Shown: piece after piece, positions 15,445 to 18,106 of the stretch
Layout of the letters: each line of letters opens with the position of its first letter
Numbering within the stretch: position 1 is the stretch's first letter
Assembly (NCBI GenBank): GCA_017883615.1
Contig: JADGNF010000015.1
Location: forward strand, 1-46,909
Length of the DNA stretch: 46,909 bases
DNA from: Candidatus Bathyarchaeota archaeon
GTDB taxonomy: Archaea > Thermoproteota > Bathyarchaeia > Bathyarchaeales > Bathycorpusculaceae
Direction of reading: 5' to 3'
Notes under the pieces: generated by a model
Told to the model about the DNA's origin: nothing
Database searches by the model: none
The model's input: the letters and a program-made list of their open reading frames with translations, nothing else
Program-made: the position numbers and the translations under genes

Positions 15445-16140
15445 CTACCGTTGAGCCACAATCATTGCGTGTGCAATATCGTAAGGCTCCAAATCTACAA
15501 CCTGTTCCACCTGGAAACCGCGGTTCCGAAGCACCTTGGCTTCCATCTGGTAAACCTCGGATGGTGGCAGTGTTACGTCAATGCTCTGTGACTTGACGGC
15601 TAATAGAACCCAGCCATCTTTTTTGAGAAAAATGTCTGCATTATCCGCTAAAACTTTGGCTTGCTCTGGCTGCGCTATGTCACAGTAAATGTCATCGAGT
15701 TTTTCAGGAATGAACATACCATATTTTTGGGGCATGCGTGCATCGGCCAAAAATGGTGACATGTTAGACCTGTGAGCCACGACGTTAGTTACTAAATCTC
15801 TTAGGCTCCGCTGAGCGAATTCGACGCAGTAAACGTGTCCCTCTTCGCTTACGATATCGCTGATGTGGCTTGGCGTCGTCCCTGAGGCTGCACCCAAATA
15901 CAACACTTTATGACCGGGCAAAATTGGCACGGTCTTTAAACCCTTTAGAATTGCGCCTGCAAGTTTGCTTCGGAAAGCGTCCCAAACCCGATATTCTTCG
16001 CCTTCAAAATGGATTAAGCGTTCTCCGTAGACGTTTTTGCCGGGTGCAAAATTCTTGGTGGCTAAACGTTTTGCGCCGTCTTCAAGCACGGCTTGATAAA
16101 TTCCTGGAAATTCAGGGTGTGGTTTAACTCGGGTTGGCAC
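15445..16140 (-). CDS. flpA: Fibrillarin-like rRNA/tRNA 2'-O-methyltransferase
   Basis: A 231-residue fibrillarin, the SAM-dependent methyltransferase of archaeal C/D-box sRNPs. The SAM-binding segment is VLYLGAASGTTPSHISDI; family blocks YGERLIHFEGEEYRVWDAFRSKLAG, ADARMPQKY and YCDIAQPEQA follow. The start is the GTG at 16140 with GGGGA about 10 bases upstream. This gives the usual archaeal length and overlaps the Nop5 stop by 17 bases. The frame stays open ~300 codons further upstream, but that is only the alternate frame of the repetitive Nop5 tail. Ends in TAG. Translational coupling to Nop5 is likely. Confidence 0.95.
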   Translation of the reverse strand: MPTRVKPHPEFPGIYQAVLEDGAKRLATKNFAPGKNVYGERLIHFEGEEYRVWDAFRSKLAGAILKGLKTVPILPGHKVLYLGAASGTTPSHISDIVSEEGHVYCVEFAQRSLRDLVTNVVAHRSNMSPFLADARMPQKYGMFIPEKLDDIYCDIAQPEQAKVLADNADIFLKKDGWVLLAVKSQSIDVTLPPSEVYQMEAKVLRNRGFQVEQVVDLEPYDIAHAMIVAQR

Positions 16141-18106
16141 GATTGCTTTGTCCCCGATCGCCGCGATTGTCACGTCGTTTGTTTGCGCCACCACTATAGC
16201 CGCCGCCTTCGCGTCGCTGTTCTCCGGTGCCACTGCTGCCAGTATAACCGCCTTCGCTGCGTCTTTGTCCGCCGCTACTTCCATAACTGCCACCGCTGCG
16301 TCTTTCTCCTCCGCCGTATCTTGGAGGGCTGCGTCTCTCGCCACCGCTATAGTTTCCACCGGCGCGTCGCTCGCCTCCGCCTTCACTGCCGTGTCGTTCG
16401 GTGCCTGTACCGCTACCGTATCTTGGGCTGCCGCTGCTTCGCTCTCTGTATCCTCCGCTTCCTTTACTTGGATTCCTATCTCTAAATGAAGCGCTTCCTT
16501 CGTTTTGGTTTCTTTCTCTAAATGGTGCCTGTGGTGCGCTTCTTTCGGTTCCAGCACTTCGGTCTCTAAAGGGAGCACTTCCTCCGCTTTGACTTCGGTC
16601 TCTAAAGGGTGCGCTAGGTGCACTTTCTGAGCTTCGTTCTCTAAAACCGCTGCTTGGGCTTGGACCGCTACTTTCACTGCGCTGTTCTCTTGCGCCGCCG
16701 CTGAATCCTCCGCTTTCTGAGCTTCTTTCGCGGTATGGTGCGCTTCCACCGCTACTGTAGCCTCCGCTTCCTCCAAAACTGCGGCGTTCGCCACCATATC
16801 CGCCGCTGCCTCCGCTGCGTCTGTCTCGTCCGCCACTGTAACCTCCACCGCCGCGTCTTTCGCCTCTAAATTCTCCTCCTCCGCGGAAATCTCGGCGTTC
16901 GCCAAATTCTCGAGGTCTTTGTTCACGGAATTCGCGTTTCTGCTCTTTGAGTGGTGGTGGCTCGGGGTATTTCTGTCGGATTTCTTCGATTCGCTTGTCG
17001 AGCGCTTTTTTGAGTTTGTCGCCCACATAATTGCCGCCATAAGCGTCTATGCGTGCTGCTATGGCAAGTTTACCTGCGACAGCGCGTGCAATCTTTCCTC
17101 TTTGCCACCGCTGCGCGTCGTGAATTAGTGTATGCTGGAAGATTAAGCCGTGCTTGGGTGGTCTAGCTCCTGTTTTTATGGCGCGAAATAGAGCTTTTTC
17201 TGCTCCCAGAACCTGCATGGTGCTAGCGGGTCGTTTGGCGAGGTTTTGAAGCCCGCCTGCGATAGCGATTAAGCGTGCTCCGAGGAGTGCTCCAACTATG
17301 GCTTTCATGTTTGGCGCCACTTCGCCCATTGTGTTGTCTAGATAAGTTTCCATACCTTCCCGAACTTTATACATATCCAAAACATTTTTGCTTAGAGCCT
17401 GAATCTGCATTAGATCAGTTTCTACCAAGTCTGCGCCCATTGAGGATTCGGCTATGCGGCTAATTTGCTCGGTTTTGTTGTTTGGTAAATCTTCTTTTTC
17501 AAGGGCTCGTTGGGTGAAGTTTTCTTTTTTGCCCAAGTTCATGACTAACCGCGCGTAAGTTTCGTGCTTCTCGACTAACCGGTCAAGTTCAGGGAAGTGC
17601 ACGCCATACCATTCTCGCAGTCTGCCCATGAAAAGGTTCAGGGTTCGATCCATGTCGTCGAGAGTTTGAATTGCTTGTCCCACGATTAGGTCACGTTTTT
17701 GGGTCGCTGTCTTAACTTGAACTTTTGCTACTTCGACGCTGACATTGCGCGACCATAAACTGAGGTCTTTGGCGTCTTTTGCAAAGCCTGTTTCAATCGC
17801 CACTTGCTGCATGCCATCGTGACGTTTTTGTGTCTGTTCAGGTTTTGCAAGTTCTGTTGTAACGCCGAGTTTTGTTTGTGCGTGGTTTGCCACGTTTTGG
17901 TTTTCGAAAACGAAAACGTCGTAACCGCTTGTTTGAAGCTGCACAATGAGGGCTGCGGTTTCTTCGGAGAGCGTATCTGGCTCGATGTTGGCGATTCTTT
18001 TTGCTGCTGCTTGTGGCTTTTTGGGGTAAACTTTACTAGCCACTATTTTGTCTTCTTCGTCGAAAGCAACGACGCCGAAGGGAAATTGTATGATAACTGC
18101 TTTCAT
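16124..18106 (-). CDS. Nop5/Nop56/58-like C/D sRNP core protein with long Gly/Arg/Ser tail
   Basis: A 660-residue Nop5, well above the ~380-420 typical of archaea. Residues 1-380 are the normal protein: N-terminal fibrillarin-binding domain, coiled coil (~130-250) and the NOP domain (GALLGARLIAIAGGLQNLAKRPASTMQVLGAEKALFRA in pieces, then GLIFQHTLIH). Residues ~381-660 are a low-complexity tail with RGG-like units at the front (RRDFRGGGEFRGERRGGGG), then about seven degenerate [FY]-R-[DE]-R-[SN] units, then more RGG/YGG. In eukaryotes such arginine-glycine tails sit on fibrillarin, not on its partner. The tail could bind RNA or promote condensation. Operon with fibrillarin. Confidence 0.93.
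   Translation of the reverse strand: MKAVIIQFPFGVVAFDEEDKIVASKVYPKKPQAAAKRIANIEPDTLSEETAALIVQLQTSGYDVFVFENQNVANHAQTKLGVTTELAKPEQTQKRHDGMQQVAIETGFAKDAKDLSLWSRNVSVEVAKVQVKTATQKRDLIVGQAIQTLDDMDRTLNLFMGRLREWYGVHFPELDRLVEKHETYARLVMNLGKKENFTQRALEKEDLPNNKTEQISRIAESSMGADLVETDLMQIQALSKNVLDMYKVREGMETYLDNTMGEVAPNMKAIVGALLGARLIAIAGGLQNLAKRPASTMQVLGAEKALFRAIKTGARPPKHGLIFQHTLIHDAQRWQRGKIARAVAGKLAIAARIDAYGGNYVGDKLKKALDKRIEEIRQKYPEPPPLKEQKREFREQRPREFGERRDFRGGGEFRGERRGGGGYSGGRDRRSGGSGGYGGERRSFGGSGGYSSGGSAPYRERSSESGGFSGGAREQRSESSGPSPSSGFRERSSESAPSAPFRDRSQSGGSAPFRDRSAGTERSAPQAPFRERNQNEGSASFRDRNPSKGSGGYRERSSGSPRYGSGTGTERHGSEGGGERRAGGNYSGGERRSPPRYGGGERRSGGSYGSSGGQRRSEGGYTGSSGTGEQRREGGGYSGGANKRRDNRGDRGQSNRANPS

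Follow-up and report, generated by a model that had tools for sequence, protein, structure and literature searches.

The Nop5 protein (Nop56/58 homologue) encoded in the window, i.e. the analysed stretch of 46,909 nucleotides from a Candidatus Bathyarchaeota archaeon, carries behind its folded core a low-complexity tail of 278 residues rich in arginine, glycine, and serine. Judged from the sequences compared, such tails extend beyond one genome and are a recurrent archaeal innovation on Nop5. A first-pass annotation of this DNA had regarded the tail as peculiar to a single archaeon; this view had to be abandoned, as about 39 species in two genera and many ammonia oxidisers possess one.

The Nop5 gene and the composition of its tail

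The gene (16124..18106, minus strand) was recognized by its open reading frame and the Pfam domains Nop5_56-rel_N_Arc and Nop. It encodes 660 residues in one open frame, 278 of them past residue 382, which bears out the initial description of a 660-residue Nop5 extended beyond the NOP domain. The N domain covers residues 3-127 (E=7.6e-9) and the NOP domain residues 149-374 (E=5.3e-74); these two domains and the pairing with fibrillarin (17-nt overlap, conserved start) mark the protein as an archaeal Nop5. The conserved core, residues 1-382 (16961..18106, minus strand), is 71-81% identical to that of six congeners. Archaeal Nop5 constructs with solved structures stop around residue 380 (3id5/3pla: 388 residues versus 412 in the native protein), so that no tail is required for assembly of the core, and the tail would therefore add something around it.

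The tail (residues 383-660; 16127..16960, minus strand) contains 68 G, 50 R, 48 S, 26 E, 22 Phe/Tyr, and 4 K (G 24%, R 18%, S 17%, Tyr/Phe 8%, K 1.4%; G/S together 42%), with L386 as the sole aliphatic residue, and carries a net charge of +21 over 278 residues (NCPR 0.076, FCR 0.31). Searches returned no Pfam or PDB match for the tail and no second match within its own genome, low-complexity filters weakening the latter search. AlphaFold, run on a shallow alignment of six sequences, models the tail entirely as coil with a pLDDT of about 30, the NOP domain and core being modelled poorly as well. Presumably, the tail is intrinsically disordered.

Its middle part (16436..16735, minus strand) holds [FY]R[DE]R[SN] units written in mixed codons (16721-16735, 16631-16645, 16592-16606, 16556-16570, 16508-16522, 16472-16486, and 16436-16450, all on the minus strand). 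Their number, estimated at first sight as about seven, is exactly 7 versus 0.02 expected from 20,000 composition-preserving shuffles. By the same measure, GERR (6 versus 0.2), SGG (13 versus 2.9), and GG (28 versus 16) are in excess, RG is significantly depleted (5 versus 12.2), and RGG occurs twice (3.0 expected). Three RG lie within the first 37 tail residues (PPPLKEQKREFREQRPREFGERRDFRGGGEFRGERRG; 16850..16960, minus strand), a part that shares homology with the beginning of the tails in congeners and is the only one with clustered RG; the other two lie within the last 13 residues.

A GAR (RGG/RG) domain is defined by tri-RGG clustering, or by tri-RG with gaps of 0-4. The tail has only two RGG in 278 residues, and a tri-RG is restricted to tail residues 26-37 (gaps 4 and 2) in a sequence depleted of RG overall. 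The earlier label “RGG” is therefore appropriate for the first 37 residues and inappropriate for the remainder, and an RGG domain is not supported for the tail as a whole. It is not a lysine-rich polyampholyte of the KKE/D type either (K 4/278, FCR 0.31, NCPR 0.08), nor, by inspection, an SR/RS domain, its RS dipeptides being scattered without runs. Codon usage of the tail matches that of the Nop5 core (third positions A.40, C.35, T.21, G.04 versus.36/.31/.17/.16). No DNA-level tandem repeat was found in the tail of the window, so that it does not represent a recent assembly stutter.

Occurrence of long Nop5 tails in Thermoproteota

Among 70 aligned Nop5 sequences of the class Bathyarchaeia, the usual tail comprises 18-30 residues and is K/R-rich and Gly-poor (median 24 aa, G 0.04). 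In 7/7 species of the window’s genus the tail is R-rich and 52-278 aa long, that of the window being the longest seen in the class, and in all 32 sampled species of genus g12 it measures 50-218 aa (one cut by a contig end). The congeners end at residues 433-471 with R-rich tails; stops near residue 390 in relatives, the outcome named at the outset as fatal to the proposal, are not seen in this genus. For the 39 tails of the window’s genus and g12, median R is about 22-24% and median G about 16-17%, and at least two RG occur in 30 of them versus 3 of the 31 other class tails. Arginine makes up 16-30% of every tail in the two long-tail genera (g1 and g12), hydrophobic residues are nearly absent, and the net charge grows with tail length (rho 0.61).

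Genera g2, g10, g14, and g25, which lie between the window’s genus and g12, have R-rich, Gly-poor tails of 37-55 residues. On the Nop5 core tree, at least six changes are needed for the long Gly-containing tails; an alternative history for them is one gain followed by several losses. When the remaining genomes of the class were assessed by ORF length, no comparable tail was found, only a conserved R-rich tail of 55 aa in family f10. A conserved R-rich Nop5 tail of 55-58 aa, not built of repeats, was observed in L104-L109 and L113 (genera g70 and g72).

The survey beyond the class covers a sample of the single phylum Thermoproteota, with ORF lengths for all but about 70 of its genomes with Nop5 hits. 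Most other Thermoproteota tails sampled measure 18-55 aa, those of the crenarchaeal representatives 25-52 residues by the anchors used. The initial premise that archaeal Nop5 ends soon after the NOP domain thus applies to most genomes sampled and fails for the window’s genus, a second genus of its family, and ammonia-oxidising archaea. The last group consists of families f29, f61, and f58 (L114-L163), assigned as ammonia oxidisers because amoA was present in 10/10 of their genomes tested; they harbor long R/G/E tandem-repeat Nop5 tails of up to 220 aa. In f29, 33 of the 34 complete tails read have 50-220 residues, with repeat units such as (DRRREGG) about 21 times in G389, (RRDDRGG) 12 times in G354, (SDRGESRGNRDFRR) in G288, and PRDxFRSRDD units in G258. 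Many ammonia-oxidiser tails are perfect DNA-level tandem arrays with 100% identity (21 nt x 21, 45 nt x 10), and a basic end (..KKRKKFGRR) is conserved. Since several of these genomes are single-contig, their long tails are not an artefact of draft genomes. The sequences show that long R/G-rich Nop5 tails arose more than once in archaea. The Nop5 tail of L154 (G394) differs from the R/G-rich ones of its relatives in terminating with the repeat SFLCCFLCRFSISFLCC..., possibly a shifted frame or an inverted array.

With the GC content of 16S rRNA as a proxy for growth temperature, lower GC accompanies longer tails (rho -0.69, 40 genomes). The relation is not significant by independent contrasts (r -0.22, p 0.18), so that a link to temperature is only a lead. 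The 16S rRNA gene of the window’s own genome is split over two contigs (G000:C71:58494-59342 and G000:C29:10-640) at model position 828/829, a breakpoint recurring in G018, G146, G132, and G537; an intron or insertion could be located at this site.

Selection, possible function, and competing explanations

The preferred reading, given an even chance of being correct, is that the tail is a disordered, net-positive R/G/S-rich extension serving as a multivalent, weakly specific RNA tether that holds the C/D sRNP on pre-rRNA. Its present length would have been reached in steps, starting from a basic stub of about 24 residues in the ancestor. Nop5 is a dimer in each sRNP of known structure, and at least two tails per sRNP are therefore expected. 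Contacts made by arginine and Tyr/Phe would render RNA binding multivalent and weakly specific; the tails would keep the C/D sRNP on pre-rRNA and ease the pairing of guide and substrate, with guided methylation performed by the folded core. We infer RNA contact and recruitment by the tail; condensate formation, to which the same chemistry would lead, is speculative.

In most cases, purifying selection acts on the protein encoded by the tails: dN/dS amounts to 0.06-0.24 in 13 of the 15 close pairs with an estimate (core 0.02-0.10), the outliers being L051/L052 (0.37) and the closest pair, L062/L064 (0.60). The pair L061/L066 is gapless over 80 codons, with a dN of 0.10, a dS of 0.82, and 7/8/28 differences at the three codon positions. 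For the window and its congener L003, tail dN/dS is 0.11 over 72 aligned codons, which represent the first and last parts of the tail and flank roughly 200 inserted residues that are unique to this species and without a homologue. The constraint is loose, as tail length differs widely between sister species and some ends lie in a shifted frame (L020, L044, L067, and L068). This looseness, the dN/dS of the closest pair, and the modest net charge of the tail (+21) weigh against the tether.

The strongest rival, which does explain part of the length variation, is that a solvent-exposed terminus grew almost neutrally, through slippage and unequal crossing-over of minisatellite-like repeats, with only the composition weakly filtered. 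The identical (100%) DNA tandem repeats in ammonia-oxidiser tails, repeat units private to each species, the frame-shifted end of L067 and the possibly shifted one of L154, and the dN/dS of 0.60 for L062/L064 all agree with such growth. It is nevertheless judged possible but on the unlikely side, considering the dN/dS of 0.06-0.24 in most other pairs, R-richness kept over long evolutionary spans in every species of two genera, the conserved basic end, and protein-level units in the tail of the window that lack any DNA-level repeat.

Unlikely, too, is a role of the tail as a condensation domain gathering sRNPs into a nucleolus-like body in the manner of the fibrillarin GAR domain, even though its 278 residues combine R (18%) and Tyr/Phe (8%) as stickers with G/S (42%) as spacers in at least two copies per particle and Sulfolobus is reported to possess a nucleolus-like body (PMC9932318). 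The sampled family-level relatives of Sulfolobus (L090-L092 and L098) have short K/R tails, so that such a body does not depend on a long one; moreover, RG is depleted in the tail of the window, and PRMT5 was absent among the 13 genomes searched, with controls working. As to arginine methylation, a further feature of GAR domains, a search for PRMT_C gave no match in any control. RGG tails as a general habit of the window’s genome were rejected, since the main DEAD-box helicase ends without one and the Nop5 tail has no second match there, subject to the low-complexity filters.

An assembly or binning artefact of the metagenome-assembled genome is extremely improbable as a source of the tail: it is the longest in its class and stems from a 79-contig draft, but its codon usage is core-like without stops over 278 codons, its first 70 residues align to congeners, and long tails also occur in the single-contig genomes G005, G354, and G389. 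The artefact was ruled out on these grounds.

The fibrillarin gene (15445..16140, minus strand; 231 aa, Pfam Fibrillarin) starts with a GTG at 16140 and overlaps the Nop5 end by 17 nt; upstream of the GTG, a GGGGA Shine-Dalgarno-like site (16151-16155, minus strand) is located within the Nop5 tail. About 68 relatives were checked, and in the majority of them fibrillarin starts at -17 or -11 with respect to the Nop5 stop, in the same frame and regardless of Nop5 tail length. Owing to this conserved start, with nothing GAR-like in front, the fibrillarin of the window is without a GAR domain, and the long low-complexity R/G/S-rich tail does reside, as originally claimed, on the partner of fibrillarin and not on fibrillarin. 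A ribosome-binding site for fibrillarin inside the last Nop5 codons, together with a conserved overlap of 11-17 nt, was observed in the window and its relatives and suggests translational coupling of both genes. In L020, L044, L067, and L068 (g12), the frame of fibrillarin with respect to Nop5 is +2 rather than +1, which places their Nop5 C-terminus in a shifted frame.

Mechanical ORF calling yields a 531-aa fibrillarin frame whose N-terminal extension (16141..17040, minus strand) is spurious and a by-product of tail composition. The probability that the tail DNA really codes for this extension in the +1 frame, or for both frames, is close to nil, although the +1 frame is open over about 300 codons: a stop can arise in +1 only where a codon has T as its second and A/G as its third base, i.e. 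L, I, V, or M, and with a single such residue in the tail the frame is necessarily open; synonymous resampling gives a mean of 0.66 stops in +1, compared with 18 in +2 and with 26 for the core; the start of fibrillarin and the site upstream of it are conserved at -17/-11 in genera whose tails have 20 aa as well as in those with 200 aa; and in the gapless pair, identity reaches 81% in the Nop5 frame but only 56% in the +1 frame. Dual coding and a long fibrillarin were ruled out by the conserved start, the resampled stops, and the frame identities.

Relation to known extensions and significance

At the homologous position, ordinary archaeal Nop5 carries a short basic C-terminal stub, which is likewise R/K-rich and ends at the fibrillarin start; unlike the tail of the window, this stub usually has 18-30 aa and is K/R-rich and Gly-poor. 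Ammonia-oxidiser tails are, like that of the window, long, R/G/E-rich, repeat-built, and placed on Nop5, but they have other repeat units and perfect DNA-level arrays and belong to a separate lineage; some, e.g. (RRDDRGG)n, are nearer to a true RGG array.

The KKE/D tails of eukaryotic Nop56/Nop58 share with the tail of the window the protein family, the position after NOP, charge, low complexity, and variable length, and those of yeast support rRNA modification and nucleolar compaction (PMC11528048). They are, however, strong K/E polyampholytes, in contrast to a tail with 1.4% K, 18% R, 24% G, and 17% S. The GAR domain of eukaryotic fibrillarin and Gar1 resembles the tail of the window as a disordered Gly/Arg-rich addition to a core protein of C/D RNPs, but it sits at the opposite end of the other partner, and the tail of the window is RG-depleted. 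The independent route envisaged by the first-pass annotation is upheld in that the evolution of the tail was separate from that of the GAR and KKE/D extensions in eukaryotes.

The evolutionary argument of a 2024 study on disordered domains of snoRNPs rests in part on the statement that archaeal C/D RNPs have neither lysine-rich nor GAR extensions (PMC11528048). In 2020, a survey of 148 archaeal proteomes obtained no match to an RG-rich domain (PMC7608942). At the sequence level, the archaeal Nop5 tails contradict this published absence in the broad sense: they are long R/G-rich extensions, most of which, including that of the window, are not strict RGG arrays. No paper describing such archaeal Nop5 tails was found in the open-access literature.

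Long R/G-rich Nop5 extensions exist in cultivable-type as well as uncultured archaeal lineages. This makes it testable, in simple purified particles, what a disordered tail contributes to an RNA-guided methyltransferase that works without one. It is conceivable, if quite improbable, that Nop5 tails, gained repeatedly and independently in the window’s genus, a sister-level genus, and ammonia oxidisers, organise sRNPs into rRNA-processing assemblies. If true, they would constitute a prokaryotic counterpart to the disordered parts of snoRNPs by which the nucleolus is built.
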